Below are positions 7,931-63,640 of a DNA stretch of 64,000 nucleotides, in pieces (position 1 is the stretch's first letter; every line of letters begins with the position of its first letter). Under the pieces are notes generated by a model that did no database searches, was not told where the DNA came from, and was given only the letters and a program-made list of their open reading frames with translations. Position numbers and translations under genes: made by a program. The DNA lies in NCBI GenBank assembly GCA_963575745.1, contig CAUYUJ010013847.1, forward strand, positions 1 to 64,000, in the 5' to 3' direction. This stretch comes from Prorocentrum cordatum (Eukaryota > Sar > Dinophyceae > Prorocentrales > Prorocentraceae).

Positions 7931-7968
<38 letters not shown>

Positions 7969-24700: not shown

Positions 24701-25225
24701 GGACTTGACTTCCTAGGCGACGGGCCAGCCAGCGCCAACCTTGCCCCGTCGGGCATCCGCACGACGCCCTCGACTCCGCCACCGAGAGCGGCACCGCACC
24801 CACATGACGACGCCGCTCACCTCCAAGACGCTGACGAACAGGAGGACGACCCGTTCAGCTTCGGTGGGGGATTGGACGTCTTGGACGACGGCCCAGCCAG
24901 CGACAACCCTGCCCCGTCGGGCAACCTCTCGACGCCTACCGCGACTCCGTCTCCGAGAGCGACATCGCTCCCATATGTCGATATCGGTCACCGCCAAGAC
25001 GCCGACGACGACCTGGGTGACCCCCGCGGACTAAGTGGCATTGACGACGCACCGCCGACACCCCACACTGCCGACCATGCCGCCCTATCGAGGCGCCACC
25101 CTACTACGCGGCTGACCTCAGAGCCCTCGTGCGGCATCAGGATTGGCCCCACCGCGCAAACCATTCCGCCCCCCCCACCAGCGGCAGCCCGCGGGGGCGG
25201 CTTCAGCCCCCCCGCAGGGCACTGA
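12770..25225 (+). CDS. LINE ORF2 polyprotein: ART-like, endonuclease, RT, zinc knuckle, RNase H
   Basis: A single 4151-codon frame from ATG 12770 (MYMSIQG). N-terminal third: low-complexity, hydrophobic stretches near 14450 and 14780, and an ADP-ribosyltransferase-like block (FWHGTRGDL to GLLIRMDW, 15738-16085). Next come an unknown block (16740-17140), a Cys-rich segment (17212-17445) and a possible ubiquitin-like fold (17790-18060). Endonuclease at 19995-20830 has LQETRH, MDANTN, SRIDYI and KSHVGL. RT at about 21920-22860 has LDGWT, LDRQKCFD, GHLQGSSWS and the catalytic FVDD at 22631. CRYC...H...C at 23650-23715 is a zinc knuckle. RNase H at 23950-24415 has TDGA, AETLAI, FVDNQA and NRQADALA. 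The RT core appears catalytically complete. RT, endonuclease and RNase H calls are strong; the others are tentative. Confidence 0.85.
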   Translation: MYMSIQGYLRTCADMQLLAHRSRRPPGLAIMRRLACSMALPLLAGARPSSGGAPQHVFLYDDSSIYKYDHCTILYPIVNSTAAAGPCGKGPLGAIASACAPSSTTTHASQSTLSVASTVVQHIFDGAADQGHARSGGFSPAVVPRYSPTGLIAPLCARGEPEEDPAFWHLMMIRARLIPCAAAWAPGEDHQDVFWAWLEDCVPYILATLHLPQYDHFFQEDSEEKNDALRQRTAIDMCEDIWHRAGPDRQRTNRNLTRIQGSREYSTRYFGLLLEYQGARAQLVGPEAFTAPLPSYLSRAHALLPRGLPPPDQDALAYLADAILHHPTDMQPLVEAELAVAPTEPLNPPPPAGLAQHATGEQAADDPISWLLQHIAASDISNIPLDSFHASDDISNISLGSFHASDDSQDDMETQDRDGMTPPGDTAQRDRDSEPHSGHTPSHSSPPNDSAQTDPCAQLNDAEGATAADATSHATASPAQTSPRSGGFSPAAALAGPGHLQTAGGSTTPRTPVCRVNVTDSNPSAIDHWQADVDNDPIDDANPDASGTYEAQHSAAASRHCGCLICLFVATYAIVIAMPYKDQIDGYLPTPSRDPSYRQRRRRQAAAPGPSVPTTPRRTTAYNVTSALWGTLKWTSAKLRDIVSGGASAVGVGLGGVLKWASGKLGAIATGGVVCGLLLVGAKLLAQGAVGHVGARICARALDSSTAQWCLRCCKPSRRPRDEATYTMPRTLADEHEDQHVHSLRHPLLQEHYAAAVAAAVADVTTATTAAIVEVTAAVSRASSVTPRSTSPSPRYGSKSGAVYGNPPTHEDATAHASDAEAREPRERTRDSPWSIFRHADARGSSSDTDTQPPRRRARYASPARPQAPSGPGTPHLALKPPTRNLRNTIQRDPAVPVPPTSILNALYQNGFALGNSGVSTEDIKDALRLHDHPRFTHDLTLQALGPWTDIMQRPPNRLTWVLEDSGGNSGETIFPYLTWDLRQPTTDAPTVFWHGTRGDLAARLAASGGHLLPGPRREAKGRTGTNVGRTYVSVHPSLAAWYAVPPHPPYSLEDDTLAWGPIALWMCEATQPPSGENWHNFVKGEAHGARLIYPRVLGLLIRMDWCAPTEAASRCRALPQAFGMGDCAHALHIAGYDHPDLREAAEAHDQEASTRRRLGIAAAWPPPQALYSPEAARAWAKQHYDTEAATRADPNQPRPRVSLRKLQLDPQPLIDLVYTGLQAVPVRGHPDARESRPSGSSPGAEPGPPRTYQSGAALAHSPDRSSTTSGDDDRRMPSLISAAAALARGHARPRRSASRASRQSGGNSTSDYSDIETWEHIVTEVEPTAYHVLAFHVRDVRARVNAPGIEVWLDPGDHHDGAYLPWGTTVMGHRVIDPEVAGRDGWVILHHDHGDTTTKLWAPTQVHVKADDTWRTVMVPADMGPQWIERHADDARLPAEVVRTTGQSWFADVWPLWDRPRPHPDDPGTNEQALPPLPGRWSCLQCRFQCCQYCAARRNTQLGTSGQPTCPDCALSGLRAPMDWSTDYSCNSWTCAYSTDNRDSDTCCLSSRCPHPPSPHSLFDVRATGMPPHILARQYGNAPAHHDLKEPPRAPSGPGGEPPQPGQAGYQGQWYLPPRPRRVPRQGLPDGTRRPPGFTGTGMPEDPSPDQPLWREGYVLFGPHQALKEDFTFNKTVRRPYSLTITNMHRDRVTVRTVCESIAERIHTTRTRWRDVVLYWDAEGGPGPQALDYDMRLCDAMVSRATTEAELNHDRSNRGSFCLYGPAHQRAVNITALPEPQNIDYMEHVRRYSPVGETYPDHAFEHVYQGWRRPDVPTVLPDTRPLSRADQQRYQQHQQRIQQRDQRDAGQPSTPRNRSPARVPTGGNTVYGGGAAYHRGPIGARPAAAGAAASSYGHAPHARVHPAVIGYPRALVQSPPRATSPVPGSTRAWGHYPGRHDSTPSNQPAVLTPAASAQGTAPSRGRTGRPEGWRDANVRAWQPRQHTPPPHVAASLRPAQAKPAPPERERQPLVPLVLTYTQAHHSASPRHSDGSAHHISPRPDAVDPDQAAASAAGGAGGPRQPSPTPCAAPIRSPSRADSARANAQATSPRDRHTGGRVPRSRSCSRHSSRKAPGSSTSSPPRETQADRQAPEAVPRFGASAIEPGQVDLEPTPSTDQELPPPTRVVIPIDEAPTFDPFKNKYRVKDLAAGFGGGSPLSPQSRGGALATSAAAAAAAAPRGVSPVRNACLTAAGMDEAQRQATDRAARAVPPDAAHHGTDGAGAPPQDGPAVSRAQYMRARCAAAASSCRRWSAFALVFGRTDRGVASLSLCCRLTSPPLVPHGTGVRRIFRCSVADVYEPPLAQCRPCPAYTYGLTAASAPFKPICRDAMSPYCGQASYLDKGQAALHRAGRANPSSTDGDGPGRSIHLASLNITSLPANWPTITALGVDHNAAVIALQETRHAKPTRQAIVTNAANPHHGGYHASLGPDLDLARAQRKAAHGGTDHTVEGNTGASGGVAILSKDAIVDSTVDDTASCIATLKAKKRWHEAFLPLCTQHRRRRRRNNHGPAGIYIASLYGVAGGDSTDLFRLADCAAARVGTAPYFICMDANTNIDDNPHLLHMMQHGWFNVAEGTPDHTMHTYGNIPDWDRVTKCPRTSRIDYIIANQAARSLVTDFCYLRDLPAKSHVGLQVTLDLSRLDHTARRLLAPTPYPLNDGAHEDHELQALGTLIAGRYQDRMVQADTRDDVERMFALANEASHEYHLTRLRDLPPPPPDHPKKKAPTMHGLTPTFEERPAVPRAFPTYGASTIHMNRLRKLHRQLCELRFIGQHHHIDCRAIPPHLAQRIDCTWTAARLLCHKLRPTVPLAFPEAWNPDEPAPHGEHLDRLIQNLDSELARRANRAKAERIKIWAEGVREPSGRKAAIYARAADCSPTAYLRTPTTPDDTQLHCDTTAFNPDQACTDDSDADTDAGGFSPSDGSSLDTDNDEGHTCDPPPAQVPDALPANAIVANTKDMLKLMVDTWEPILGRYRARAGHDAEAMPTWADFYDEYRQELPTPSPAVPFHLTDDQLIHFIRNRSPCRAGGLDGWTTKEAKELPDDILRLFASVLRAMQRTGNIPEPLLHVPNPCLRKGRGELPTDQRLLSVLSVWMYAWEAPAYRSLTDWRKGWTHATSFGAVPKATIGDVSTSLALRIEHARALLLPLAGAALDRQKCFDYLITDICLNLALHAGCPQDIVTVRRNFYNHHKRYIRMNGACSKDLARTNGHLQGSSWSLDDIKLLMCVWTKRQHRYVPRSLSTTFVDDSNSTTHTASELQKSLDETAKFDRFSGQRIHPGKVAGWALTDELHAAVTQLTLAERPLRVVDSFKLVGSYINAEAAPAPAALNLTATADARVRRATIRLPRIGKLPSPMLIKARHARSLAASVCTTGTDIQAPSGPAKTAYNHALKAAIRPKGNKWVEFWTLMAVCVPGHALEIDAITQREAFLCLRRQVNRDVTLCGLARDLQHHVQTLCGGGPVGRLVQSLQQLRWTWPTFGIMYDDWGCQISWLNLPQNAFLHMLRASQRRAFLRRIKPRRHDLGYLASVKQGLDLFASTWLARTKGAAKCTAWQLALLLNYLSGGDHTQQRRSRSNTSADPSPICRYCDEEEETQEHTVRDCKCWARERLPLTILISDDQWARLPPHTRHCGLFDEDPALLDLQADLARDPLPQPIPRPPPEGDPAASAQDTYTTYLDHDTGWTWVYAATDGACTNQAIPLLARAGYGVYYGIDHRMNYSARVHGLTQNAQVAETLAIVHLTACAERPVHVFVDNQAVVDGFQSIIDGHPAPQGTHVDLWEKIHRCVMAKPNMFRVEKIASHLGDMGIDLGLIGPIAEEFNRQADALATTAARTHNLPDDIVEAAKTRHRQATVLHGVAVAIYERRHRTLPLPHRRAGFTAAELNKMEPNPLLSDQAPPAAGPDIPQNPDELWAEAQRAIFDEQEDDPFGFGGGLDFLGDGPASANLAPSGIRTTPSTPPPRAAPHPHDDAAHLQDADEQEDDPFSFGGGLDVLDDGPASDNPAPSGNLSTPTATPSPRATSLPYVDIGHRQDADDDLGDPRGLSGIDDAPPTPHTADHAALSRRHPTTRLTSEPSCGIRIGPTAQTIPPPPPAAARGGGFSPPAGH

Positions 25226-39936: not shown

Positions 39937-40140
39937 CCCAGAAACAATGATGACGCCGACGACGATGACGACGCCGACGGCGACAACGACGACGACGATG
40001 ACGACGACGGCGGCGACGACGCCGACGACGTCCCAGGCAAGCGGCGAACGTCCTGCTCCTCATTCGCCTCCTCCTCCTCCGACTCCGCCGCCTCCTCCTG
40101 ACCCGCAGCCCCTCCGGTCCAAGGATACGGAGGTCTATTG

Positions 40141-40905
40141 TGGATCCGCGTAGCGCGTCATTGCGCTGGGCCCCCCAGCAGGCCTCGAAAGTGGCGACAG
40201 TTTCACAGGTCGCAGCCCCCCAGGGATGGCGAGGTCTAATTTGGGTCTGCGTGTGGCCCCACTGTGCTGGGCCCCCCCAGCAGGCCTCGAAAGTGGCGAC
40301 AGTTTCACAGATCGCAGCCCTCCCAGGGATGGCGAGGTCAAATTTGAGTTTGCGTGTGGCGTCACTGTGCTGGGCCCCCCAGCAGGCCTCGAAAGTGGCG
40401 ACAGTTCCACCGATCGCAGCCCCCCAGGGATGGCGAGGTCTAATTTGGGTCCGCGCGTGGCGAGGTCTCGAAGTGGCGACAGGATCGCAGCCCCCCAGGG
40501 ATGGCGAGGTCTAATTTGGGTGTGGCGTCACTGTGCTGGGCCCCCCACCAGCCCTCGAAAGTGGCGACAGTTCCACAGATCGCAGCCCCCCAGGGATGGC
40601 GAGGTCTAATTTGGGTCCGCGCGTGGCGTCACTATGCTGGGCCTCCCAGCAGGCTTCGAAAGTGGCGACAGTTTCACAGATCGCAGCCCCCCAGGGATGG
40701 CGAGGTCTAATTTGGGTCCGCGCGTGGCGTCACTGCGCTGGGGCCCCCAGCAGGCGTCGAAAGTGGCGAGAGTTTCACAGATCGCAGCCCCCCAGGGATG
40801 GCGAGGTCTAATTTGGGTCCGCGCGTGGCGTCGCTGTGCTGGCCCCCCCAGCAGGCCTCGAAAGTAGCAACAGTTTCACAGATCGCAGCCCCCCAGGGGT
40901 GGCGG
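40141..40905 (+). repeat. Satellite array, ~101-bp unit
   Basis: ATGGCGAGG recurs at 40226, 40329, 40430, 40501, 40596, 40697 and 40798, with a variant at 40899. Spacing is 101-103 bases except for a shortened unit (71) and one of 95. Each unit reads CTGTGCTGGGCCCCCCAGCA, then GCCTCGAAAGTGGCGACAG, then CACAGATCGCAGCCCCC. Plus-strand ORFs here are repeat artefacts. Confidence 0.9.
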
Positions 40906-41825
40906 GTTGGGAATAAAGCAAGAAGCAGGACGCAGGAGGAGGGAGGGAGGCGGGAGGAAGGAAGGTGGAGACCATAGTCCCTTATTCAAAACGAATACCC
41001 AACCACGGAGGGTTGGGAAAAAGGGTGAGGAGAAGCGGGCGCGGGAACAGCGACCCACAGTCCCGCCTCGCGCTTCCACCCTCCTGTCGAGGTTCCGCGG
41101 CTGGGCACGGCCGCCGAGTGCATGGGCGAGGCGGGACGCCCTGCCTGCGTGGTCGGGCCCCCCCAGTCCCCCCCGCTCCAAGTGCTCCGCCTTGGAAGTT
41201 GAGGGCAAAGATCAGCCCATCGATCAATCAACCGTGAGGCTTCTTCCCTTTTTCTCCACGTGCTTCTCTCATCCCTTGTTCTTCTTTCCTTCGCCGTCAA
41301 TCAAGCGGGTCCTGAGGTTGTTCCCCATTTCTGGCCCCGCGGGACCCCCACGGGCCCCGAAACTGTCAGTGAACGGCTCATGACGACGAAGAGTTGGTCA
41401 TGGGTGAAGGCCTCCAGGTCCTGGGTCTTGGACTCGTTTCTTTAAGGGCCCGTTCATTTCATGCCGAGTTTTTGGTCAAGCCGCGGGCGCAGATAGGCGG
41501 TGATGACGAGCCGCGATAGAAGGACATTTTAGGCTAGCCGATACAAGAGGCCGCGGATGCAGCAACGCGACCCCCGGACAGCGTCCCGCATTTCCAGATC
41601 CTTCGCCACCAGATGGAGTGGAATACCGACGAAACCAGCCCAGCCCTCCCCCCGCCCTGGTCCCTCCCTGCCCTCTTTTTTGTCGCCCTTCTCCACACTT
41701 GCACAATATGAATACTACTCTCCTCTCCCTGGTGACGTCCGGGAGATGTTCGGCCCCCATCCGCGTACCAGTTGTTTATATTGGATTCCCAGGAAACGGG
41801 TTTTCGCTTGGGTTTTTCCAAAAAT
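40906..41825. other. Non-coding stretch
   Basis: Several frames are open but none has motifs or exon borders I can defend. Confidence 0.4.
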
Positions 41826-43386: not shown

Positions 43387-43424
43387 TCATCAGCATCATC
43401 ATCATTATCATCATTATCATCATT

Positions 43425-43496
<72 letters not shown>

Positions 43497-43550
43497 TTCA
43501 TCATCTTCATCATCTTCATCTTCATCTTCATCTTCATCTTCATCATCATC
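43387..43550. repeat. (ATC)n microsatellite, left flank of the split-repeat element
   Basis: ATC/ATT units following a (CTC)n run. The element begins immediately after, at ATGCTCC. Confidence 0.95.
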
Positions 43551-43611
43551 ATGCTCCTCTCTATTCTCCTTGCGACCCGCGCTCTTGCTGTCTCTGCAGC
43601 TTCTCAGCCCC
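43551..43611 (+). repeat. Split direct repeat A1
   Basis: Identical to A2 at 53327-53387. It starts ATGCTCCTCTC, directly after (ATC)n. Confidence 0.9.
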
Positions 43612-44310
43612 AAAGCGCCCCCCTCGGCCGCGCGCGCGGGCGCCTTATGCAGGCGATCGCGTAGGTGGCTCTCCAGGGCGCGGGGGACATTCTTTTTCGG
43701 GGGGTGCGGGCCGCGCTCTGCGAGCGGCTCGTCGCCGCCCCCGTTTCTGTGCTTCAGGACCAGGGGCCTCCGCTACCGCCTGGTCCACCCAACAGGCAGA
43801 CCCGCCTGGGGGTGAGGGGGCCGTTTGCCCCCTCCCCTCGGCGGGCTCTGCCTGTCCCACCGTCTGCCTCGGGCAGGCGGTGGAGTTGAGCAGCGGGGCC
43901 TCTCCCCGGCTGCTCTCGACGGTCGCTGCCCTCCTCTGGGTGACGGCCGCGTGCAGCGCCTGCGCAGGCTGCTGCTCCGGGCTGCTGGGCCCGTGCCTGT
44001 GGCGGAGGCTCTGGCCCTTCGCCTGGCCGCGCGGTGCGGCGCCTGCTCCGCTCGAGCAGGACCGCCGCGCGGCCCGAGCGCTTGCTTGCGGGCCAGGAGC
44101 CCAGGCGCTCGACAGGGCTCGGGCCCTGCGTCCCGGGGTCGGTGCCTTCGTCGGCGCCCGCTCAGCGCGCCGCGCTCAGCTCGAGGCGGCCCTCACCGCC
44201 TCGCGGGGCCGAGCCCCTCGGACGGTCCTCCTGAGCCGTTCCGCGCGAGCTTCGCTCGCTCGCGCTCGCTCGCGCGCGCTCTGCTCTTCCTCTCCCTTCT
44301 GGCCGCCTGG

Positions 44311-46897
44311 ATGGCGCATCCGCTTGTCGGCGGAGGTCCCATCTGGCCCGACCTACGCTCCTTTGCTACAGCTGCTGCCGCGCGACCGCTCGCCGGCAGG
44401 CGCTCTCGCAACGAGACTGCTCAGCGGAGCGCTGCCTCAGCGACGCGAACCCAAAAGCTCCCGCCTTTCCTCCCCTCGCCTCCCTCTTCTTCTTCCATCG
44501 AGGCGGGGGGAAACGACGAGGACGAGGAGGGGTACGAGGAGGCTGAAGACCTGGGTCTCCGCAGCGAAGAACAAGCCGCCAGAGGGAGGAACGGTCTACT
44601 GCTCGCGCCCCACCAGCCACCGCCGCGCAGTACGCACCGCCCGCAGCCCACTGCAACTCTGAGCCAGCCTCACGCCCGCCGAACCGCGGGCGAGGAGGCA
44701 GAGCGCGCGAAGGGAACCGCCTTGGGGACGGGGGAATGGGAGGAGGAGAGTCCTGCTAACCTCCACCTCCTCACTCACTCCCCTCCCCCCCTCACAACGC
44801 CATGGCTCGACCGGGGCCCCGCTTGCTCAGCGGGCACCGAGTGGCCGCTTCGCGCGGCCTTCCGGGTTCCAGGCACCGACGCGGCGGGCCTGTCCTCGTC
44901 CTGGTGGGACGCGTCATCAGCTGAGCCACCCGCTTTGTTGGCGAGCGCCTTTGACGTTCAGCGCGGTGTGCCCCTTATCTGCACCCTCCCGCCGCCGACG
45001 CTGCAGGGCAGGCGTCCCCTGCCGCCCCCAGGCCTCGCCGAATTGGGTATCGGCCCCCCTCCGGGCCTTGGCCCTCCATCGGCTGCCGAGCGAAGGCCGC
45101 CGTCGCCACGGGTTCCGACGGGGTTGCCTCCTCGTCCGCCACCCGGTTTGGTCGCGCCGTTGGAGCCGGATGTGTGGCGTGTGGAATCGCTTCCGCGTTT
45201 CTCCGGCATGGAGGCCGGCGCTCGGGTGCCGCCTGCGATCAGTCCGTGCACGCCCGCGGAGTCGTTTCTCGTCGGTGGTGGATCGCCCTTCCAAGCCGGG
45301 CGGGCGGGGCCGCCGCCAGGTCTCGCCGACCCAGAGGCGCTCCCGTCGCTCCACCGTAACGCTGTTGATCCCGCCTCACTTTGGGCGTGCGCTGCCCGTG
45401 ACTTGGGTTGGTATGGTGATTTCGGAGGGCTCCCACCGCCTACCAGCCTCGTGGGTGGTGTCGGCGCGCCCGCCGCCAGTGGTCCATCCCCGCGTGCGGG
45501 CGCCCGCGATTTGTTGCACTCGCTCGGGCTATTCGGGGATCCAGCCTCATCCTTGTCAGCCCTGCCGCCCCACATGAGGACATATGCGATGGCGTCAGCC
45601 GCCGATGCCGCTGTTTCACGGGGGGTTCTCGTTGCGGCTGCTTGCCAGGCTACTCCTCCACCCGCCGCCGCTGTGCCTTCGCGCGGTGCTGCGGGCTCGG
45701 GCACTTGCGACTTGCCGCGGTCGCTCGGGGTGCATGGGGACCCCCCCACGCCCCCGCCCGACACAGCGTCGGTGCTGGCAGAGTCTACTTCTGAGTTCGG
45801 CTGCACGGGCGACCCGGGCGGGCTCTGGCCGCCGACCTGTCCCGCGAGCGGGGTCGACGTGTCAGGTGCACGAAATCCTACTCCATGTGGCGCGGGCGCG
45901 TCCCGCGTTGGCAACGGGACGTCGTCAGCCCACGTTCGGTGCCCTTCTTCTCTGCGCCGACTCGACGCGTCGCCGGCCGCCTTCGTGTCTCCTACGAGCG
46001 GTGCTATCTGCTCGAGTCCACGCGACGTGCTGCGGGCGCCCAGGGTTCGCGGCGACCTTCCCGCGCCCCTGTCAGACTCAGCGGGTCATTCGAGCGCTCA
46101 CGACCTGCCGCGGTCGCTCGGGGTTCCTTCGGACCTGGCTGACGTGGCCGACAGGATGGCTGCATTGCCCCTGGCCACCCCAAGGCCATCAGCAAAGCCT
46201 TTCGCCGCTGGGCCCCGCGCCTCCGCCTGGGCAACACGACCTTGCCTCGGTCGGCGGCTTCGCCGAGGCGGGCGGCGCGGACGCCGTGGACCCGCCTCCT
46301 GCGGCTCCCCAGTCGGACCTCAGCATGGCGCTGATGTGCTTGCATCAGTCTCCAGCCCTAGCCCTGCAGCAGGGGCGGGGCTCCCGCCCAGCAGCTCATC
46401 CGCTACTGGGGTTTCTGAGCGACTACGCTCAGGCCCCGTCCGCATCTTCGGGCGACCTCAACTCTTCGTCCACTCAGATGCGGGGGATCGCACGGCGGCG
46501 CGCTTGGCATGCTACCTTGGCGCAGCACGGTCCCGCCGTGCGAGACCCGCTCGGGGTTCAGACGCTGCTGACCTGCCAGTGCATGTTCATCGATCAGCAG
46601 GCGGGGGACCGCGGCTGCCTAGAGGCCGCATGGTTCCTCACGGGGGTGGAGCCCACTCCATGTCGCGTCACCAGTCAGCACACGGAGCGCGAGGCGCAGT
46701 CCCCGTTTTCACCCCTCGTGGACTTCCGCTGGCTGTCCGCGCAGGGCGAGTACATGAAGGAGCTGCAGGTTTTTCGGACGCGCCTCGACGCCGAGCGCGC
46801 CGCCGCGCTTCCCCAGCAGCCGCCTCACGTACCCAAGCAGCCCAGGACTCCAAAGGTGCCTCCCAAGGTACCGAAGGTGCCACCCCAGAAGCAGTGA
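44311..46897 (+). CDS. N-terminal ORF of the DIRS-like element, with one frame change
   Basis: First in-frame ATG at 44311 (MAHPLVGGG). The protein is low-complexity: an acidic patch (DEDEEGYEEAEDLG), PPGL repeats (PPPGLAELG, PPPGLGPP, PPPGLVAP, PPPGLADPE), then about five diverged ~40-residue repeats at 45500-46130 with DLPRSLGVHGDP and variants. Around 46210 the coding signal moves to the next frame (HDLASVGGFAEAGGADAV, MRGIARRRAWHATLAQHG, LVDFRWLSAQGEYMKEL) and ends at TGA 46895-46897 after KVPPQKQ. Position suggests a Gag-like structural protein; no zinc knuckle is seen. Because the original frame is also open through this stretch, the change could be an indel pair or two overlapping ORFs. 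Confidence 0.45.
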
Positions 46898-47235
46898 CGG
46901 GGCCGCTGCTGCCCGTCACCTGCGAGGGAGCTGCCTCCAGTGGCCGAGGTTCAGCGCCGCAGTCAGTCCGTGCTGACGCTGCTGCGGCTGCTAGGCGCGC
47001 TTGGGCGCAGCGAGGCCGTGAGGGTAGGAATGCGCTCTTCCAGCGATGCTGGTGCGGCCCCGCAGGGAGGAGTTCGTTCCGCCATCACGCCTCTCGCTTC
47101 GCTCCGAGCCGCCCCTCGTATCCACCCGGCCATTTTGGCCACCACTGCCCTCAGTCGAGCTCCCCCCGCACGGGGTGTGCAGCCCCTGAGAGCGGTGTCC
47201 TTGCTGGCGCGCGTCCTGTCGCGTGCACCCCCGCT

Positions 47236-50200
47236 GCCCTTGCTAAAGTCGCGCCCTTTGTCGCTGACGTGTCTTCCTTGCTGCGTCTTTTTCCTGGCGC
47301 AAACATCGATATCACCCACTGGGCAGCTGCGCTGTCTCAGGTCGGGATGGGTGCTCGTTGTTCACTGGGCTCATTCTCCCGCTCATCTTTGCGTGCGTTG
47401 GATCGGGACGACCCGTACTTTTTGGGGCCGCCTCCCCGCGATCCTTGGCCGTGTCCGCCTGCCCCACCTCTTGGTCCCCCGCCTGATGGTCTGTCAGCGA
47501 GGCGCAGGGAGCGTTGGCGGCTCAGGCGCGCGGCACGGACTCTTGCGCAGTATTCCGTTATTGCGTTGAACTGGCTCACGCTGGGTCACCCTAGCTTCGC
47601 TCCCGCCGAAGCCCGAGTCCGCGCCACGGCCTCGCCCTGCCAGGAGGGCGTTCGCTCCCGCATTGAGCGGTTGTGTCGGATCGCAGTTCGCCTTGCCCGC
47701 GGTGGCAAGAGCGACCTTGGTCGGGCTTTCGCCAAGTTCGACTCCACCGAAGTCTCGCTCCATGGCCTGGCCACCCATGTCGTAGCTCTTGAGGCTTCCT
47801 TCACCTCCTCCTCTTCCGTGCCTGCCCCCATGCGGCACTGCCCGACCAGCGCTCCGCCCGTGCCTGGTTCGTTGGCTTCTGCGGCGGCCTGGGACCCCAC
47901 CCAAGCCGAGCCCTTCGACCTCAAGGTCCGGGCCTCCCGCATCAAGTGGGATTACTCGCCCGAGTTCGATCCCACTCCCTTCCTCTCCGACGCGCGTGTG
48001 CGCGAGGCGTTCCTCGACCCCGAGGTGATGCGGCTGCCGTCGGCAGAGTGGCCTTCAGGCCAGAAGGGTGCACGTGTCCATATGGACCGCGCTGAGCTGT
48101 GGGCCCTGCTCCAGAAGTGGGACGCCTGCGGCGCTCTCTACCTGACTCCCGCTTCGGACCTCGCCTGGGATGAAGCTTGTGGAGCTTTCAGGGTTCCAAA
48201 GGACAGCGACTTCGATCGTCTGATCCTTAACCCTACAGTGGTCAACAGCCGCTGCGCCTCCATCTCGTCCAGCACGCAGCGGCTCGGCCAGGGCTTCCTG
48301 CTGTGCCGCCTGGGCCTGGAGCCTGGCGAGTGGTTGGCGGTCTCCTGCGACGACTTGCGGGAGTTCTACTACACGTTCCGCGTCCCCCCCGCCCGCGCTC
48401 GGCGAAACGCTCTGCGAGTTCGCCTGCCTTCGGCCCGCTTCAAGGCATTTCGCGCCTGGCGGCCCGAGCTCGAGGGCGTGGACGTCGCCCCATGCTTGAA
48501 CGCTCTTGCGATGGGCGACAACATGGCGGTTGAAATTGCCAACTCAGCCCATGAGGGTGTTCTGCGCAGTTTCGGCGCCTTACGACCTCACGAACAAGTC
48601 GTGCATCGGTTGCCCTTCCCCCGGGGCCCTTTCGTGGAGATGCTGAACATTGACGACCATACTGGCTTCCAAAAGCTCTCCTGGCGTGGGACGGCGCCTC
48701 GCCCTGACGACCCTCATCGTCGGGATCGCGAGGTCTTCGCCGCCTGCGACAAAGGGTACCCGCGCGTGGGCCTGGTGCAGCACCCAGGCAAACGCGCCCG
48801 CGGGGAGACGCACAAAGTTGTGGTGGGGGCCGAAGTAGAGGGACGTATCGGTATCGTCTGCGCCCCCCTGGTGCGGACCGTTGCCCTGTGCAGGCTGACC
48901 TTGATACAGATTTATCTCGGCATCACTACACGGTCCCTCTTGTCATCTCTTGTCGGTTGTTGGGTGCAAGTTTTCCTCTACCGCCGCCCACTGTTGGCCA
49001 TATTTACGCATGTCTACAACTTTCTGTCACGTCTGGCAACTGAGGACGGGATCGAGTACGATCTTCCTCCCTCGGTGCGTGACGAACTTTTGGCTTGTAC
49101 ATTTCTGGCCTTCACCGCTATAACCGACCTTCGGGCGCGCCCCTGCTCCGAAGTGTTCGGTACGGACGCATCCCTCGGCTGGGGGGGAGTGGTCCGCGCT
49201 CCGATCAGCTCCCAGTTGTCTGCCGAGCTGTGGCGGCGATCTGAGCACGGGGGGTGGCACACGATTCTGCACAATCGGAGCCTCCTCGCCGTTCTGAGCC
49301 GCGGCGAATCCTTGGGCCCTGAGCTTACCCAGCTGCACCGCGACCTGGGGCTGCCTTCTCTTGAGCCTCCCGTCGCGCCGCGCTGGGTAACCGAGCTCTC
49401 GGAGGCGATTCGCTTTCGCTTGGCGTATAAATGGGAGTTCCGCATGCCGCGTCACATCAACATCCTCGAGACCACCGTTTATAAGAGTCTTTGCAAGTAC
49501 TGCTGTATTCGGATCCCAGACTCCCGTATTCCAGTTCTTCTGGACTCGAAGGTGGCCCTGGGGGCGTCCGCTCACGGGCGTAGCAGCTCCCCTGGGTTGT
49601 CCCACGTTCTTTCCACCACTTTGCCTTATGTGATCGGGGGAGGTCTTTATATGGGAGGGTTATACGTGCCAACGGATGTGCATCGAGCAGACGATCCTAC
49701 CAGGAATCGCCCCGTCAGGCCCCCTTCTATACCTCCACCGTCCTGGCTGGTTGAAGCCGAAGCGGGAGACTTCACCAGGTTTGATTGTGTCGCATACGCG
49801 GACTCCCGTGCACCTTATCCCACATGTCTGTGGGGACGCCTTGTCGCGTTGCTGCTGTCTCGAGGGCTCCTCGACAGCCCCGTGGGCCACAATGGGGCGG
49901 CCTGTTCCCCCCTCGCGGCGGGCGTGGGGCTGACCGCCGCTGCAGACGACGCCGAGGGGCCAACTGCCGGAGCCCCTGGCGCCTGCAGCGCTGACGGGGC
50001 GCCCGCTGAGGCGCTCGGCCCCCGTGTGGGGCCGCGGAACGCGCTGTTCCAGCCGCGCGACGAGGGTCCCGGCAGCTGCGCGGAGGGGGCAGCCCGCCTT
50101 GTTGCTCCCCCCGCGCTCTCGTCGGCCCCCGACGCGCGTCCCAAGACGCGGTCGGCCCCCCAGCCTGCCGTCGGGGGTGGCCAAGCTCGCACAGTTGGGC

Positions 50201-52806
50201 GCGACTTCCCGACGGGCCGCGAGGCCGCGACACCTCACGCCTTCCAGCGCGCCGCCCGCCTGGGCCGAGCCCGCCAAGTGCTCGGGGTCGCGGAGGGCGC
50301 CCACAGGGACGCGATCGAGGGCTCGTTCCGGCGCCTCTCGGTCCCGTGCCGTCCCGACAAGGCACCCGCGGGGTTGACAGCTGCCGAAGCGGTCGCCCGC
50401 GTCCAGCGGTGGAAGGACTTGTGCGACGCGAAGTCCCTGCTGCTGAAGGCGGCGGCGCATCAGTCGGCGTCCGCCGTGCTCGCGCCTCCGCAGGCGAGCC
50501 AGCCGTCCAGGCTTCCGCTTGGGCCGAGGCCGTTGGCCAGGGCGCCCGCCGAGGGGCCCCTCCCGCAGAACACGCGTGCCGTCCTGCACAACGCTGAGGT
50601 CAAGACGGGCCTCGCCAACGAGGAGCGCGCCGCTCGCGGTGGGGACGCACCCGCGTCGTCTACTGGCCGCTCCTTGGCCGAGGTGGAGGCCGAGGATCCG
50701 CGCGCCCTGGCGCGGCCCGCCGACGACCCTGCGTCCCGCTTCAGCCTCCGCGAGCGGCGCGCAGTCCGCGCCCGCCTGGGCCCGCGGGATGAGGCGGTCG
50801 AGGACCAGCCCAACCGCGGTGGTCACGCGCCGCACTCCGCCTCGCGCACGGGCGCCGCGCGCGCCAGGCGCGCCGCCAGGCAACGGCGGGTTTCGATGGC
50901 GGCGCCCCCCGCCCCTGAGGGGGGAGCCGCCACGGCGCCTGGCCGCAGGGCGCGTCGCACAGCCAATGCGCGCCGCTGGGCAGGCGTGGCACGCCCCAGC
51001 TCCGCCGCGGGAGTGGGCTCCCCACAGCGGAGCCCCAGCGCTGCCCGCGGCCGTACGCGGTCTCCAAACCCGCACGGGAGGGACCACACCTCTCCCTCGG
51101 GGGGCGGCTCTTCGCCTCCCGTCGACGGCCCGCTCTCGCCCGAGGAGCCGTCGGAGCCGCCCGCGGGAGTGGCACCGGAGGGCCCCCACGCCAGAGCCCC
51201 GAGGTGCCCCCCGCGCTCGCCCGACGGGTCACCGCCCGCGAGCGTTCGCAGCCGTTCGAGAGCGGAGCCCGCGTGCGACGAGGACGAGGCGTTCGACTCC
51301 GACGACGCCCTTCTGCAAGAGGGCGCGCTCGCCTCTCTGAGCGCCCTCGCGGACTCTTCGATGGACCTTGAGCGCGTCGTGGCGGGCATGAACCCCGAGG
51401 TCCTCCGCCGCCTGCAGACGGTTTTCCCTGGTGGCTCGGCTGAACGAGGACCCCGCGACGAGCGCTCCCGCTCTCATGAGCGCTCCGGCAGCAGGAGGGG
51501 TTCTCCCCGCAGCCACGGGGGCAGGCAGCAGCGCGGTAACAGGGGGCACCCTCCTCGCCGCTCGGGGGGCTCCCCGCCCGCCGCTCGCGCCTCGGCTCGC
51601 AGCCGCTCTCGGGGCCGCGGTCCGCGCGTAGGCTCCGAGCCTCCGCGGCCCTTGCTCCCGCCGCCGCCTCCGCCCCCTCGCCCTTCAGACAGGCGAGAGG
51701 CGTCGCGCTCCAGGGACGCCCGCGGCTCCCCCCGCGCGCCCTCGCGACAGGTGACGTCGCCTCGGCGACGCGAGGCGCGCGCCCCTCGGGTCGCTCCGAA
51801 GCGGCGCCCGAACCCTGCTACGGCGCCTCGGCAGGCCGCGCCCCGCCAGGGTGCGAGCTCGGGCGGCGCCCACGCAGGCAGCTACCGCGCGGGCCCCGCT
51901 GCTCAGGCCCCCCCGTCCTCGGTAGGCACGCGCTCCTCCAGCGATGCTGCTGCGGCCCCGCAGGGCGGAGGGCGTGCCGCCGAGGAACGGGGGTCTTCGA
52001 GCGGCCTCGCGCCTGGCCGGGGCTCGGGGCGCGAGCTGCATCCCAGCGGCACCCACAGCGGCGACCCCGGGAGCGCCGCGGCTGCAGCCTTCGCAGCGCG
52101 GCGCACGGCTTCCGAGGCCGTCGAGCAGCCCTTGCCCACTCTGACTCAGGGGAGTGCGGCCCCACTGTCCCCTATCTCGGATTCCCGCGTTCCGCGTCTG
52201 AACTTCCCTCACCTGTCCGCCGACGAAGCGGCGCGCCTGGGCCTGCAGGCGCCGACCGTCGAGGCCATCTTGGCCAGGGCCCCTGGGCCCCCTCAACGCG
52301 TCCAGACCTGCGCTCTGGTTCCTGCCTCCGCCCTAGTAGCGGCTTGGGGGAACAGGCGGGGCAGTGGCGCCTCGACGCAGCCGCCCGCTGCTCTCTCCCC
52401 GAGCATCCTGCCGCCCCTGGGGTTGGCCAGTCTCGATGAGGGCGCAGGCTCCGCCGAGGTGGCCGCAGGTGACGTCAGGGGAGCTTGCGCCGAGGCTCCC
52501 CAGAGGACCCTGCATCTGGCCCTCGAGTGCCTCCTTATGGCGCTCGAGCAGGGCGCAAGCTCCGCCGAAGTGGCCGCAGGGGACGTCATGGGAGCGTGCG
52601 CCGAGGCTCCCCAGACGACCCTGAATCGGGCCCTCGAGCGCCTCATTTTGGCGCTTCGGCAAGGCGCAAGCTTCGCCAAGGTGGCCGCAGGGGACGTCAT
52701 GGGAGCGTGCGCCGAGGCTCCCCAGACGACCCTGAATCTGGTCCTCGTGTGCATCCTTCTGGCGCTTCAGCAGGGGAGCCACGTTTCACGACACTGGCTT
52801 AAGTAG
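47236..52806 (+). CDS. Pol ORF of the DIRS-like element: RT, RNase H, J-like domain, repeats
   Basis: The frame has been open since before 43825; an in-frame ATG lies at 47347, but coding character begins earlier (VAPFVADVSSLLRLFPG). RT at about 48100-48740: LLQKWDACGALYLTP, DRLILNPTVVNSR, SCDDLREFYY and MLNIDDH, the YxDD box with Asn for Tyr. RNase H at about 49150-49720: GTDASLGWGG, HINILET, LLDSKVALG, GRSSSPGL and a final ADDPTR, close to the DIRS pattern. At 50250-50445 a J-like domain reads RQVLGVAEGAHRDAIEGSF and CRPDK. From 50800 it is Arg/Ser/Pro-rich, and three 37-residue repeats (52438-52770) precede GSHVSRHWLK-stop. No tyrosine recombinase motif (R...HxxR...Y) is apparent. Confidence 0.7.
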   Translation, partial: ALAKVAPFVADVSSLLRLFPGANIDITHWAAALSQVGMGARCSLGSFSRSSLRALDRDDPYFLGPPPRDPWPCPPAPPLGPPPDGLSARRRERWRLRRAARTLAQYSVIALNWLTLGHPSFAPAEARVRATASPCQEGVRSRIERLCRIAVRLARGGKSDLGRAFAKFDSTEVSLHGLATHVVALEASFTSSSSVPAPMRHCPTSAPPVPGSLASAAAWDPTQAEPFDLKVRASRIKWDYSPEFDPTPFLSDARVREAFLDPEVMRLPSAEWPSGQKGARVHMDRAELWALLQKWDACGALYLTPASDLAWDEACGAFRVPKDSDFDRLILNPTVVNSRCASISSSTQRLGQGFLLCRLGLEPGEWLAVSCDDLREFYYTFRVPPARARRNALRVRLPSARFKAFRAWRPELEGVDVAPCLNALAMGDNMAVEIANSAHEGVLRSFGALRPHEQVVHRLPFPRGPFVEMLNIDDHTGFQKLSWRGTAPRPDDPHRRDREVFAACDKGYPRVGLVQHPGKRARGETHKVVVGAEVEGRIGIVCAPLVRTVALCRLTLIQIYLGITTRSLLSSLVGCWVQVFLYRRPLLAIFTHVYNFLSRLATEDGIEYDLPPSVRDELLACTFLAFTAITDLRARPCSEVFGTDASLGWGGVVRAPISSQLSAELWRRSEHGGWHTILHNRSLLAVLSRGESLGPELTQLHRDLGLPSLEPPVAPRWVTELSEAIRFRLAYKWEFRMPRHINILETTVYKSLCKYCCIRIPDSRIPVLLDSKVALGASAHGRSSSPGLSHVLSTTLPYVIGGGLYMGGLYVPTDVHRADDPTRNRPVRPPSIPPPSWLVEAEAGDFTRFDCVAYADSRAPYPTCLWGRLVALLLSRGLLDSPVGHNGAACSPLAAGVGLTAAADDAEGPTAGAPGACSADGAPAEALGPRVGPRNALFQPRDEGPGSCAEGAARLVAPPALSSAPDARPKTRSAPQPAVGGGQARTVGRDFPTGREAATPHAFQRAARLGRARQVLGVAEGAHRDAIEGSFRRLSVPCRPDKAPAGLTAAEAVARVQRWKDLCDAKSLLLKAAAHQSASAVLAPPQASQPSRLPLGPRPLARAPAEGPLPQNTRAVLHNAEVKTGLANEERAARGGDAPASSTGRSLAEVEAEDPRALARPADDPASRFSLRERRAVRARLGPRDEAVEDQPNRGGHAPHSASRTGAARARRAARQRRVSMAAPPAPEGGAATAPGRRARRTANARRWAGVARPSSAAGVGSPQRSPSAARGRTRSPNPHGRDHTSPSGGGSSPPVDGPLSPEEPSEPPAGVAPEGPHARAPRCPPRSPDGSPPASVRSRSRAEPACDEDEAFDSDDALLQEGALASLSALADSSMDLERVVAGMNPEVLRRLQTVFPGGSAERGPRDERSRSHERSGSRRGSPRSHGGRQQRGNRGHPPRRSGGSPPAARASARSRSRGRGPRVGSEPPRPLLPPPPPPPRPSDRREASRSRDARGSPRAPSRQVTSPRRREARAPRVAPKRRPNPATAPRQAAPRQGASSGGAHAGSYRAGPAAQAPPSSVGTRSSSDAAAAPQGGGRAAEERGSSSGLAPGRGSGRELHPSGTHSGDPGSAAAAAFAARRTASEAVEQPLPTLTQGSAAPLSPISDSRVPRLNFPHLSADEAARLGLQAPTVEAILARAPGPPQRVQTCALVPASALVAAWGNRRGSGASTQPPAALSPSILPPLGLASLDEGAGSAEVAAGDVRGACAEAPQRTLHLALECLLMALEQGASSAEVAAGDVMGACAEAPQTTLNRALERLILALRQGASFAKVAAGDVMGACAEAPQTTLNLVLVCILLALQQGSHVSRHWLK
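52438..52770 (+). repeat. Three in-frame 111-base repeats
   Basis: Units begin at 52438, 52549 and 52660. Each encodes 37 residues with (S/F)A(E/K)VAAGDV, GACAEAPQ and a hydrophobic helix (LALECLLMAL, RALERLILAL, LVLVCILLAL). They end the pol ORF. Confidence 0.95.
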
Positions 52807-53171
52807 GGCCAGATTGTTCAGCCGACGACGCTGCGTCGGCCAGAGCAGGGGGGTAAGCATTTGGACTTCACCGATCCGCTCCCGCCCTGCGCGCGTTGCG
52901 GCTTCCGTACTCGGTGAAACTATTTGCTTTCGGCTATTGGCGTGCTGATCGTCTAAACGGCCTTCTCGCCCCCCTACGAGCTGTCCGCTCTCCCTGAGCC
53001 CCCTTTGTGCTCAGGTCGCCTGTCGTACTGTCAGTTGCGACCTCTGTCGCTGCCCGCCCGCGTCGTCCTTGTCGCTTCCCTTCTAGGGGTCGGCCCTGCT
53101 GTATGGACCACCTGTCTATCGGCCGCCCGCCGAAACCTTGTCACTGCGCAAGGGCTTTGAGCATGGGTATG
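52807..53171. other. 3' non-coding part of the DIRS-like element
   Basis: Lies between the pol stop and repeat B1. A short hairpin GCCGACGACGCTGCGTCGGC is visible at about 52820-52840. No coding signal. Confidence 0.6.
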
Positions 53172-53328
53172 GCTGCATCGCCGTTTACGGCGACCAGGCG
53201 GACTCCACCGCCTGAGGCGGCGCCCCGGCTCGGGCGCGCGGGGCGGGCCTGCCCATTTTGGGCCGTTCCGCGCGCGCGGCGCCGCGGCCCCGCACGGAGA
53301 CAGCTCGCTTGCGCGCGAGCGGGAGAAT
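53172..53328 (+). repeat. Split direct repeat B1
   Basis: 157 bases identical to B2 at 53422-53578. Contains a hairpin CAGGCGG-ACTCCA-CCGCCTG (53195-53214). Its right end abuts A2, sharing AT. Confidence 0.95.
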
Positions 53329-53387
53329 GCTCCTCTCTATTCTCCTTGCGACCCGCGCTCTTGCTGTCTCTGCAGCTTCTCAGCCCC
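53327..53387 (+). repeat. Split direct repeat A2
   Basis: 61 bases identical to A1. The B1-A2 junction has the sequence expected for joined element ends. Confidence 0.95.
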
Positions 53388-53421
53388 CCTCCCTCCTCTC
53401 CCTCATCTTGGCTGATGTGGC

Positions 53422-53578
53422 GCTGCATCGCCGTTTACGGCGACCAGGCGGACTCCACCGCCTGAGGCGGCGCCCCGGCTCGGGCGCGCGGGGCGGGCCT
53501 GCCCATTTTGGGCCGTTCCGCGCGCGCGGCGCCGCGGCCCCGCACGGAGACAGCTCGCTTGCGCGCGAGCGGGAGAAT
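53422..53578 (+). repeat. Split direct repeat B2
   Basis: 157 bases identical to B1. Its end GGGAGAAT runs directly into CATCATCAT. Confidence 0.95.
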
Positions 53579-53640
53579 CATCATCATCATCATCATCATT
53601 ATCCTCCTCCTCCTCCTCCTCCTCCTCCTCCTCCTCCCCC
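53577..53640. repeat. (ATC)n and (CTC)n, right flank of the element
   Basis: ATC units then CTC units, mirroring the CTC and ATC tracts at the left flank. Confidence 0.9.
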
Positions 53641-56187
53641 CCTCCTCCAACTAGGCATTTGATATTGTGACTGAGGGTTGCAAGAGCCCCTTCGGTGCTC
53701 AAGGGCCCCCTTGTCACCACCGTTTGCCCGTGGGGTTTCCGAAAATATGATGGTGGAGACCCCCAAGGGCCAGCAGTAGGTGGCCGTGCGCAGGACCATC
53801 CAGCACAGTTTGCTGACTTGATCGTGCGTTTGGGCGCCGCCGCAGCTGCTGCCCGAACTCTTAGCCAGGAGCGAAGGAATGAAAGAGTGGAAAATTGGCT
53901 CCGACAGAACTTCGGGCTGAAGGTACGAAATGCGCTCTTAGCTCGTCTGCCTGCGGCAGGTTGAATACCTTCGACGAATGTGAGTTCCTCGGGAGTTGTT
54001 GTTTCGCATCCGATTCCCCAGGGCCAGGCGATCTGTTTCGAGCTTGTGGCAGGTATCAAGCAGGCCGAACCTCCCTGGCGAGGGTTTGGTTTTGGAGCCC
54101 TTTGCCCATTATATGTGGACTGCGCGTGGGCTGGATGGATTCCACATGGGGCGCGACCCCTGGATGAGCGATGACTGTTTCCAGGTGTGTTGCACGATGA
54201 TCTGGATTATGGAATAGAGATCAATCCCCCACCCTGATTACAGGTAGTGCAGCTAGCTCTTCCCATGAAGCCGCCAGGAGGTTGCAGGCCGATCGGCCCA
54301 ATCTGCTCGCAATACCGCTTATGAGGCAGATGGCGCCGCCACTTCGCGCCCGAGTGGGAGATGACAGCTTCTACGCGGACAGGCTTTGGCGTCAGCTAGC
54401 GACGTCGTTTGGAGGCAGAGCAGGGCTTCAGGGCGGAGGCTGCGACTACCAGGGGAAAAGCTAGCATGACCTTCGCGCGGGACATGTCCGCATTACTTAT
54501 AAGGAGGGATCTGCCTGGTCAGACTAGAGATGCACTGCGACAAGTCTGCTTTCCCTGAAGTCATTTTCAAGCGCGCGATCTCGGCACACCGGTCGGCTGC
54601 ATTCGTTTCTTTGGCAGGGTTTGTCCGCGGGCCCTTTTACGTTATCAACGGGGTCATAGTTGGGCGCAGTTTCGTTGCGGATTGCTCGAGGAAGGTTATT
54701 ATATGCATGCCTTCCCGCACGCGACATCACCCCCGAATGCGTTTGTGGGGCCAACATCTGGACGACAGCATCCCATCCGCAGAATAATAGCGCGCCACAG
54801 GCGATCGCAGGCTCGAAGGAGGTCAGTGCCCAGCGACAAAGCTGACGCGGCCATGCGTGCGTTTCTGGACCCTTTGGCAGGGCCACTCATTGCTGGTGCT
54901 GTGAATCTTGTGTCGAGCGATGCTGGGGGTCGGCCTCGTCAGGCCGCTCGTCGCGGTTTAAAATTTCGCACCAGGGTAGACAACCCTGGGAAATGCGTCA
55001 TAAAGCTGGTCAGGGTGCAATGCAGCCTCGGCAAGTATCATCATAGGATGCGGATTTCTGCCCCGCACACACACACCGCCCCACCCCGGCGCGTCGCACG
55101 GTTCGGAAATCAGCGGGCCCTCAGACTCCGAGCCCCCGAAATTCGTCGGGAAGCAAGGGAATGTTTTCGCGTGGGGGCTCAGGGGCGTTCTCTGACTTTT
55201 ACAATGATATGTCAACAAGACATCGCTTGGCCAGGTGGCGTCTCTCCCATCGCACGATACTCCGAGAAGGCATGGGCGCTGCAGACGCACTCGCTCCCGT
55301 TTCCGCGCAGGTCCGGCGCAGCTACGCGGCGGTTGAAACGCAGTCGCCCCCCGACCTGCCCCGCCTTGGCGCGACGCGCCCAGGCCGATATCCGCCCTGC
55401 GTCTTTCTCTGCAGCGGGAATGGTGGGACGCGACTTGATCGCGCGACCTGCGTCACGTTAACATGCGTTTCGCACGCCGCGTTGAAGCGCACGCCGCGCG
55501 CCGCGCCACCTCGGGGCCCGGGGCGCGGGCTGCCCGCGAGGCCGAGGCTCGGCGCGCCAGGCGCTGCAACGACGCGGTTCAGAACCGCTCGAAGTCACCG
55601 AGGCCCCCGACGAGGAAGGGGGCCCCGCGCGACGCCCGGCGCGCGAGGCGCCGCTGACATGGCGAGGCGGAGGGTGAGCCACCAGGCCCTGAATATCCAC
55701 CCGCTCTGTGGCCAGACAGGCGACGCGGTGCGCCGTCGACTGGGGCCGCGCCCGCGCGTCTCCTCCACCCGCAAAGAAGTGCAACCCCGGGGCCCCGCGG
55801 CAAGCCGCAGGCATGCGCGCCGTTACTTTGCACGGGTCTGTCTCAGCATCCTGGAGATCGCCCCCTCGGCCTGCGCTGGGAGGCGGCCCGGCCCCAGCCC
55901 GGGCGCTTCGGGGCAAGCCCCCCCCCCCCCCCTCCCTCCGCGCAGGCGGCGCTTTTGCAAGCGACGTCGATGCTGATGGCCCAGTTGGCAGAGACCCCTT
56001 ATCAGCGAGCCCCCCCGGGGCGGGGCGCGGGCCGGCTGCCCTTGCCAGCGCGGGCGGCAGGCCAGGAAGGCCCGCTGCCCTTGCCCGCGCCCTTTTCGCG
56101 CAGACCTCTGCGCCCCCCGCTGGCCGAAAATACAACGGCCGCCTAATGTTCGCGGCCTGGGCCGCGGCCTCAGCCGGCCGAGCGCGA

Positions 56188-61789: not shown

Positions 61790-62176
61790 GAGCGTTTCGC
61801 GTGAGACATCCTCCTAAATCTGAGCTCTGAGAGGCCGCGCGAGAGGTGGTCCGGGCCGTTTCGCTTGAGACATCCTCGAAACTCTGAGCTCCCAGATGCC
61901 GCGCGAGAGGTGGTCCGGGCCGTTTCGCCTGAGACATCCTCGCAACTCTGAGCTCCAAGATGCCGCGCGCGAGGTGGTCCGGCCCGTTTCGCCTGAGACA
62001 TCCTCGAAACTCTGATCTCCCCGATGCCCTGCGCGAGGTGGTCCGGCCCGTTTCGCCTGAGACATCCTTGCAACTCTGAGATCTGAGATGCCGTGCGCAA
62101 GGTGGTCCGGCTTGTTTCGCACAAAATATTCTCGCAACTCTGAGCTCTCAGATGCTGCGCAAGAGGTGGTCCAGCC
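61790..62176. repeat. 64-base satellite, six copies
   Basis: AGGTGGTCC begins at 61844, 61908, 61972, 62036, 62100 and 62164, exactly 64 bases apart. The unit includes GTTTCGCCTGAGACATCCTC, then GCAACTCTGAGCTC. More copies lie at about 62830-63000 and 63440-63610. Confidence 0.95.
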
Positions 62177-62209
62177 TGGGGGCCCAGAAGGCCACATGTT
62201 ACATATCCT

Positions 62210-63640
62210 CCATGGGACCCTGCGAGCCTCAGGAGGCCCCAGAGAGGTCCAGGAGGCCGCAGGACGCCCAGGACAGGCCCCAGGGGCCCCCAGGAGATTC
62301 CCAGGAGGCCCCAGGAGGCCCTCTATCAGAACGTGTCAAGTTAATACACATCCGGTGTCGATTCGTTGATTTTCCTGCTCTTGTGCCCCCCCTCTGGCCC
62401 AAGCGGCCACAGGTTAGATATCCCCCCTGGGAGCCCCAAGATGCTTCAGGAAACCTCAGGTGGAGTTCAGGAGGCCACAGGAGGCCCAGGAGGAAGCTCC
62501 AGGAGGTCCCCAGGAGGCCCAGGAGGCACCAGGAGGCCGCAGGACGCCCAGGACAGGCCCCAGGGGTCTCCAGGAGATTCCCAGGAGGCTCCCAGGAGGC
62601 CCCAGGAGGCCGCTTATCAGAACGTGTCAAGTTAATACACATCCGGTGTCGATTCGTTGATTTTTCCTGCTCTTGTGCCCCCCCCCCTCCATTTGGAGAG
62701 GCCCAAACGGCCACAGGTTATATATCCCCCCTGGGAGCCCCAAGAGGCCCCAGGAAACCCCAGGTGGAGTTCACGAGGGGAGGAAGCTCCAGGAGGTCCC
62801 CAGGAGGCCCCAGGAGGCACCAGGAGGCCCCCGCAACTCGGAGCTCTGAGACGCCGCGCTCGAGGTGGTCCAGCCCGTTTCGCCTGAGACTTCCTCGCAG
62901 CACGTTTCGCCCGAGACATCGTCGCAACTCTGGGGTCCGAGATGCCGCGCGCGAGGTGGTCCAGCCCGTTACGCTGGAGACATCCTCGCAACTCTAGGCT
63001 CCGAAATGCCGTTCGCGATGAAGAGGAGGTGGAGGAGGAGGAGGAGGAGGAGGAGGAGGAGGAGGAGGAGATGGAAGGGAGAAGGAGGAGGCGGATGATG
63101 TGCATGAGGGAGCAGGCAGGAGGAGGGGGAGGTCCCAGAGAGCTTCAAGAGGCCGCAGGACGCCCAGGACAGGCCCCAGGGGTCCGCAGGAGATTCCCAG
63201 GAGGCTACCAGGAGGCCCCAGGAGGCCCTCTATCAGAACGTGTCAAGTTAATACACATCCGGTGTCGATTCGTTGCCCCTGTATTTGGAGAGGCCCAAAC
63301 GGCCACCGGTTAGATATCCCCCCTGGGAGCCCCAAGATGCTTCAGGAAACCTCAGGTGGAGTTCAGGAGGCCACAGGAGGCCCGGGAGGAAGCCCCAGGA
63401 GGTCCCCAGGAGGCCCAGGAGGCACCAGGAGGCCCCCGCAACTCGGAGCTCTGAGACGCCGCGCTCGAGGTGGTCCGGCCCGTTTCGCCTGAGACTTCCT
63501 CGCAGCACGTTTCGCCCGAGACATCGTCGCAACTCTGGGGTCCGAAATGCCGCGCGCGAGGTGGTCCAGCCCGTTACGCTGGAGACATCCTCGCAACTCT
63601 GGGTTCCGAGATGCCTTTCGGGATGAAGAGGAGGTGGACG
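62210..63640. repeat. Compound repeat block with CCAGGAGG minisatellite
   Basis: Three copies of a ~45-base block starting TATCAGAACGTGTCAAG occur at 62324, 62615 and 63231. They sit among CCAGGAGGCCC-type repeats and the 64-base unit. The stretches 62400-62880 and 63290-63540 are long direct copies of each other. A (GGA)n run lies at 63020-63075. Confidence 0.85.

Follow-up and report, generated by a model that had tools for sequence, protein, structure and literature searches.

The element and its repeats

Prorocentrum cordatum is a bloom-forming alga, and the window analysed here is a stretch of 64,000 nucleotides of its genome (contig CAUYUJ010013847.1, positions 1 to 64,000). It holds a 10,028-bp retroelement, lodged in a microsatellite and bounded by split direct repeats. 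This element is one copy of a family, class I below, that belongs to the dinoflagellate lineage of tyrosine recombinase (YR) retrotransposons and has lost its recombinase; a sister family, class II, encodes one. The termini are organized as follows.

43387..43550, target flank on the left, a microsatellite of (ATC)n / (TTCATC)n
43551..53578, + strand, whole class I element, 10,028 bp; other copies align to the same ends
43552 and 53577-53578, junction bases of the window copy, T on the left and AT on the right
43551..43611, + strand, A1 repeat, 61 bp
53172..53328, + strand, B1 repeat, 157 bp
53327..53387, + strand, A2 repeat, 61 bp, sharing AT with B1
53388..53421, + strand, spacer between A2 and B2, 34 bp
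53422..53578, + strand, B2 repeat, 157 bp
53579..53648, target flank on the right, (ATC)n followed by (CTC)n, keeping the phase of the left one

An earlier note on this DNA had described a complete element with identical repeats in the order A1...B1-A2-B2. The arrangement is confirmed: A1 and A2 agree at 61/61 positions and B1 and B2 at 157/157, lengths at which 1e-25 and 7e-77 chance pairs are expected, and no third copy of either repeat was found within the window. B1 and A2 overlap by two bases, AT, and their junction, GGGAGA-AT-GCTCC, reads as the end of B2 joined to the start of A1, which is the circle-type junction that the note had recognized. Its proposals of insertion into a microsatellite and of recent movement also hold, as the (ATC)n-type left flank is resumed in phase on the right and the 218 bp of repeats show 0 differences (upper 95% bound 1.4%). 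The word complete has to be given up, the window copy having no YR and only a broken remnant of one, and membership of Ngaro/PAT is unsupported because those groups are defined by a YR, which is missing here. The split direct repeats themselves are those of order DIRS and, in the order A1-B1-A2-B2, of the Ngaro group. A different 61-bp repeat lies inside the element, at 47023-47083 and 51921-51981 (87%), and class II copies likewise carry it in two places, around relative positions 2684-2744 and 7921-7981 (90%).

Copies in the genome

The genome searched comprises 4.128 Gb in 21,875 contigs, the window copy lying on contig C13263. A query of 450 bp from the 5' end, for which the best 40 of 564 candidates were scored, gave 27 matches of 99-100% running from base 1 or 2 to base 450 (window copy counted), 2 partial matches of 99-100% and 11 matches at 84-86%; matches of 99-100% are taken as class I and those of 84-86% as class II. 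Leaving aside the window copy, class I was fetched at length for 11 copies, as end pieces for 10 and not at all for 7 (5 full, 2 partial); 9 of the 11 class II copies were fetched. The earlier note would have been refuted by copies that end elsewhere. For the most part this is not the case: of the 11 class I copies with a long stretch fetched, eight have both ends where the window copy has them, seven of them unbroken at 99.6-99.8% and C4002 in two pieces (99.9 and 99.7%) that run from first to last base around a 105-bp gap; the other three (C16955, C14088 and C19144) fall short, their 3' end not being reached within the stretch fetched. Among the best 40 of 621 candidates, a B1-A2-B2 query found 31 class I-like places at 97-100% (window copy counted, two partial) and 9 further places at 86-87%. 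In the nine class I copies with both B ends, the window included, A1 matches A2 throughout the 59 bp compared, and a single base separates B1 from B2 in C8969 and in C19462.

Coding content of class I

The coding features of the window copy are listed below.

43816..52806, + strand, single long open frame, 2993 aa from TTG at 43825
46508..46822, + strand, gag-like core in the +1 frame, in open reading frame (ORF) 45584-46897; E 1e-9 to the gag region of the dinoflagellate polyprotein P0051
47938..49203, + strand, reverse transcriptase (RT) domain with the motif NIDDHTG; coordinates transferred from copy C19462, whose frame ends are equal
49393..49782, + strand, C-terminal half of RNase H (RH), with HINILE, LLDSK and HRADDPTR
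50224..50508, + strand, DnaJ-like (J) domain, RPD in place of HPD
50509..52400, + strand, Ser/Arg/Pro-rich low-complexity region of the long frame
52432..52775, + strand, three tandem copies of a 111-bp repeat, without match in the class II copy C14245, within the stretch that holds the class II YR gene
52861..53154, + strand, decayed remnant of the YR gene 3' end, with stops

Codon-position GC and the relatives identify the long frame as the coding frame for RT-RH, the J domain and the C-terminus, and as an overprinted open frame across gag. The pairing of RT with RNase H, as in order DIRS, is supported by relatives, motifs and an AlphaFold model, in which the RT fold resembles those of HIV, MMLV and Ty3. 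RT motif C and the end of RNase H fall within one open frame in all 12 class I copies examined. Class I does not have the HPD of DnaJ domains: the window copy has RPD instead, as do 10 of 12 class I copies, and the pattern was not found in C4002 and C19462. The DNMT-like insert of related proteins, so named from its motifs and from the available text of PMC5890265, is absent (best E of a DNMT hidden Markov model (HMM) 0.68 in the six-frame window). No methyltransferase (MT) was seen either, the Dam type having been sought by Pfam only, which misses divergent domains.

In two gene models of P. cordatum, P0049 and P0050, five pieces of the element (45578-52776), the same in both models and without RT-RH, are spliced into different host genes, through joints that resemble GC/GA/GT-AG introns. 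They were set aside as functional evidence, being a possible prediction artefact.

The missing recombinase

An HMM built from 17 YR domains found no YR in the six frames of the window (best E 0.68). With the protein P0002 left out of the model, the best window value was E 0.4 against E 1e-99 for the P0002 domain, and five 60-residue pieces of P0002 scored 2e-10 to 2e-23 in the same database. What is left of the gene was detected by tblastn, 52861-53154 matching the end of the class II YR at 36% identity, with stops (E 3e-10). The YR of order DIRS is thus lacking in class I and present in eight of the nine class II copies fetched.

Pfam and NCBIfam gave no RT, YR or MT match on the element or its relatives, even where the domains exist, and since known domains are also missed, this silence was not counted as evidence. 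Profile comparison of the relatives with lambda Int and Cre gave no match, and the question was settled by a structure model. PDB sequence searches with the RT and with the aligned relatives returned nothing useful, no relatives were found in viral-contig, genome-contig and phage collections, and there were neither Rfam matches at gathering score nor tRNA. The metagenome protein P0001, once considered as a case of YR loss, was dropped: it is uninformative on the YR because the fragment stops at the start of the J domain and the class II YR lies ~3 kb beyond.

A sister family with a recombinase

In class II, the RT, RH and YR HMMs match eight of nine copies, the YR with E 3e-80 to 9e-83; C10003 has no match to any of the three within the 15 kb fetched, and the DNMT HMM matches 0/9. 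RT, RH, J domain and YR share one open frame in four of the nine (C16295, C14245, C1796 and C4274), and the frame is broken in C10513, C14070, C21224 and C14716. HPD is present in 8/9, and the J domain of C14245 passes the Pfam cut-off (30.9 vs 27.8 bits). The YR contains the blocks FLRPGEL, LRGSGAT, WRGRW and ERYLQ, which we take to be the catalytic boxes, and a 557-bp query from it matched at least 40 near-identical places, each given as 100% identical (best 40 of 578 candidates).

The window copy and C14245 align along the 5' end, gag-RT-RH, the region after the J domain and the 3' end, and the YR stretch of C14245 corresponds to the unmatched 111-bp repeats of the window copy. RT-RH is 94.0% identical in amino acids between the two. 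Over the 28 bases before AT at the B end, the window copy differs at one base (27/28) from the eight class II copies having it.

Junctions and target sites

The junctions of 31 copies (22 class I, 9 class II) were compared. The base before the element is T in 31/31, preceded in turn by A in 21, C in 6, G in 3 and T in 1, and the right end is AT in 24 of the 25 ends found and AA in C1653. These counts indicate that the right AT belongs to the element and that junction and target share the left T; a crossover at AT was accordingly revised, as only T is constant on the left over the 31 junctions.

Counting as simple repeat any left flank that reaches 75% periodicity across 42 bases, a threshold of our own, 16/31 copies have one and 15/31 do not, against background rates of 109/3580 T positions in the window and 654/8237 in the copy flanks (p 2e-10 against the higher background). 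The class II copies C21224 and C14716 sit at a single common site, and the result is little changed by this. One microsatellite site alone cannot reveal the absence of a target-site duplication; the evidence for it comes from sites of period 3 and period 4 combined, and from the empty paralogues of one site. Repeat phase reaches the full score without removal of a base in 12 copies, the period being 3 or 6, or 4 in the case of C16708; C15482, C2928, C12225 and C15093 score 2/3, and C1653 is the exception. Together, these results leave no room for a fixed target duplication of 1 to 11 bp.

The site of C8969, which is not a simple repeat, belongs to a dispersed repeat. When its two flanks are joined, 55 other rows match; 47 of them span the joint, and 33 of the 47 show no net insertion or deletion. 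This insertion is conservative and YR-like. The flanks used are 282409-282559 and 292583-292734, and several of the many empty paralogues have an inverted neighbour nearby. The absence of target duplication agrees with order DIRS, and both PMC4157794 and PMC3266345 describe YR elements as producing none (here and below, papers are cited for the portions of text available).

Selection on class I genes

Between the window copy and C14245, RT-RH has dN 0.038 and dS 0.949. The J region is 55% identical with dN/dS 0.25, the region after it has dN/dS 0.45 with dS 0.19, and gag has dN/dS 0.34; the uneven dS across regions suggests that the two classes have exchanged sequence. Among 12 copies of class I (some partial), RT-RH shows 12 synonymous and 7 nonsynonymous changes, where 2.32 nonsynonymous per synonymous (70%) are expected (p 0.003), and the rest of the frame shows 17 and 23 (p 0.09). 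RT-RH is also identical at 302/348 positions to the metagenome fragment P0001, the linker at 55/118. The class I RT-RNase H is under purifying selection.

Discussion

Class I is, in our judgement, probably a half-autonomous, recombinase-less element that has kept its own RT-RNase H and uses the YR of its sister class II in trans. In this model, class I would make its own RT-RNase H; the open frame and the purifying selection are observed, and expression is deduced from them. Its RNA would then be copied to DNA and, with the B1-A2 copy as template, closed into a circle joined B|A, a step that we infer from the anatomy, of which the junction sequence is the part observed, and from the published model for YR elements. 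The circle would recombine at T with a chromosomal T; the T, its frequent place within trinucleotide repeats and the lack of target duplication are shown by the junctions, the repeat phase and the empty paralogues of one site. The YR required is not class I's own, since little more than a broken remnant of the gene survives; it is most likely supplied by class II, which has RT-RNase H, a J domain, a YR and nearly the same ends. The fuller picture, in which selection keeps the RT-RNase H in cis, a sister with matching ends provides the YR in trans, the polyprotein carries a DnaJ domain and T sites in trinucleotide repeats are favoured, is put forward with less assurance, though we hold it somewhat likelier than its opposite. 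The J domain may serve in particle assembly or in the recombinase complex, and the change from HPD to RPD in class I may be the mark of a lost function, likewise supplied in trans.

Several observations weigh against this model. The proposed action of the class II YR on class I ends is deduced from the match of their sequences; over the 5' 542 columns, the two classes are 85.8% identical. The YR HMM missed the remnant seen by tblastn, so decayed YR pieces can escape it. In C1653, the right end is AA and the repeat is in phase only once one base is removed. As to selection, the between-class dN/dS also covers the period that preceded loss of the YR, the within-class test draws on 19 changes and on a transition weighting that we set ourselves, gag shows no constraint within class I (1 synonymous, 7 nonsynonymous changes), and some of the constraint could stem from exchange because the classes are mosaic (dS 0.95 in RT-RH, 0.19 after the J domain).

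That gag result, together with the lack of a YR and the 99.6-99.9% likeness of class I copies, which leaves little time for decay, would also suit a plain passenger, for which class II RT and YR do all the work and the class I RT-RH is an undecayed relic. We regard this as unlikely, in view of the frame uniting RT motif C and the end of RNase H in 12/12 copies and of the 7 nonsynonymous among 19 RT-RH changes vs 70% expected. It is less probable still that the YR of another element family, or of the host, moves class I. Further dinoflagellate YR polyproteins do exist, and the genome was queried with class I DNA, class II DNA and one flank only, other YR families not being sought; however, it is class II that shares near-identical B termini, the T junction rule and the kind of target, and that has many near-identical YR copies. 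An autonomous window copy with a divergent, unrecognised YR might be imagined because Pfam misses both YR and RT of the relatives, yet the lineage HMM with its strong controls finds none and the place of the class II YR is taken by the 111-bp repeats and the broken remnant, so that this reading is already contradicted and merits almost no credence. We give equally little credit to the A/B pattern being an assembly artefact or unrelated satellite: an element within a microsatellite is difficult to assemble, but the same ends recur across many contigs, whether the surroundings are repeats of period 3, repeats of period 4 or DNA without repeats, and empty paralogues are present, which contradicts it.

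If class I does use the class II YR, cDNA synthesis and site-specific integration are divided between two co-resident families; since both are near-identical within, RT cis-preference and YR trans-action are directly testable. It would also offer a route by which YR elements may settle in microsatellites, an abundant niche of large genomes. BARE-2 is reportedly a half-autonomous element of comparable kind, using the protein of its partner BARE-1 in trans; these are said to differ in being LTR elements, and in that gag rather than the integration enzyme is missing.

Relation to known elements

The sequence relatives, 48 in number, are dinoflagellate DIRS-like polyproteins of the SymbioDIRS-Dnmt3 type (E 4.6e-135 to P0051) and include records named Symbiodinium (P0047, P0055, P0056). 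P0051 itself bears the label Skav, which we take to mean S. kawagutii. In a tree without Ngaro or PAT reference, the class I RT-RNase H groups with dinoflagellate proteins that have the DNMT-like insert and a YR. Most YR-bearing relatives (P0011, P0012, P0051 and others) have an NPGP motif, presumably 2A-like, between RNase H and YR; the frame of the class II copy C14245 did not show it.

SymbioDIRS-Dnmt3 of Symbiodinium, with A-coding-B-A-B repeats and a divergent RT missed by Pfam (de Mendoza et al. 2018, PMC5890265), resembles class I in its dinoflagellate host, its A-B-A-B repeats, its divergent RT and its related RT-RH, the last as judged through database proteins. It has a DNMT in Pol, whereas classes I and II have no DNMT-like domain, and its YR is a separate ORF, whereas that of class II is in frame with RT-RH and class I has none. 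Conversely, classes I and II have a J domain after RH (in class II, between RH and YR), and 'dnaj' occurs 0 times in the text of PMC5890265 examined, which notes DIRS elements without DNMT and makes no mention of YR-less forms. Ngaro, PAT-like elements and VIPER share with class I the order A1-[ORFs]-B1-A2-B2, gag, RT and RNase H, but encode a YR, unlike the window copy; Ngaro and VIPER are without the MT of the DIRS group (PMC6681497, PMC8547959, PMC4157794). SIRE, a short VIPER derivative of Trypanosoma cruzi, has likewise lost genes and kept YR-element ends, but consists of the A2-B2 region, whereas class I retains 10 kb with an open RT-RNase H frame (PMC6681497). YR-linked insertion into simple repeats is also found in endogenous nimaviruses, which, unlike class I, are large DNA viruses with a telomere-repeat-specific YR and a (TAACC)n target (PMC10871703). 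Our literature searches, which covered few subscription papers, turned up no precedent for a DIRS class that bears an RT, lacks a YR and has a YR helper, nor for a J domain or a trinucleotide-repeat preference in elements of this kind. One search aimed at a J domain within a retrotransposon polyprotein likewise gave none.

Other features of the window

Elsewhere in the window, a 4151-aa ORF at 12770-25225 (+ strand) matches Exo_endo_phos (E 2.5e-5), with weak RVT_1 and zf-RVT matches below cut-off, and looks like a LINE-type element. Tandem arrays lie at 40130-40907 and 61793-63615, with units of ~101 bp and of mixed 64-bp and 10-bp length.

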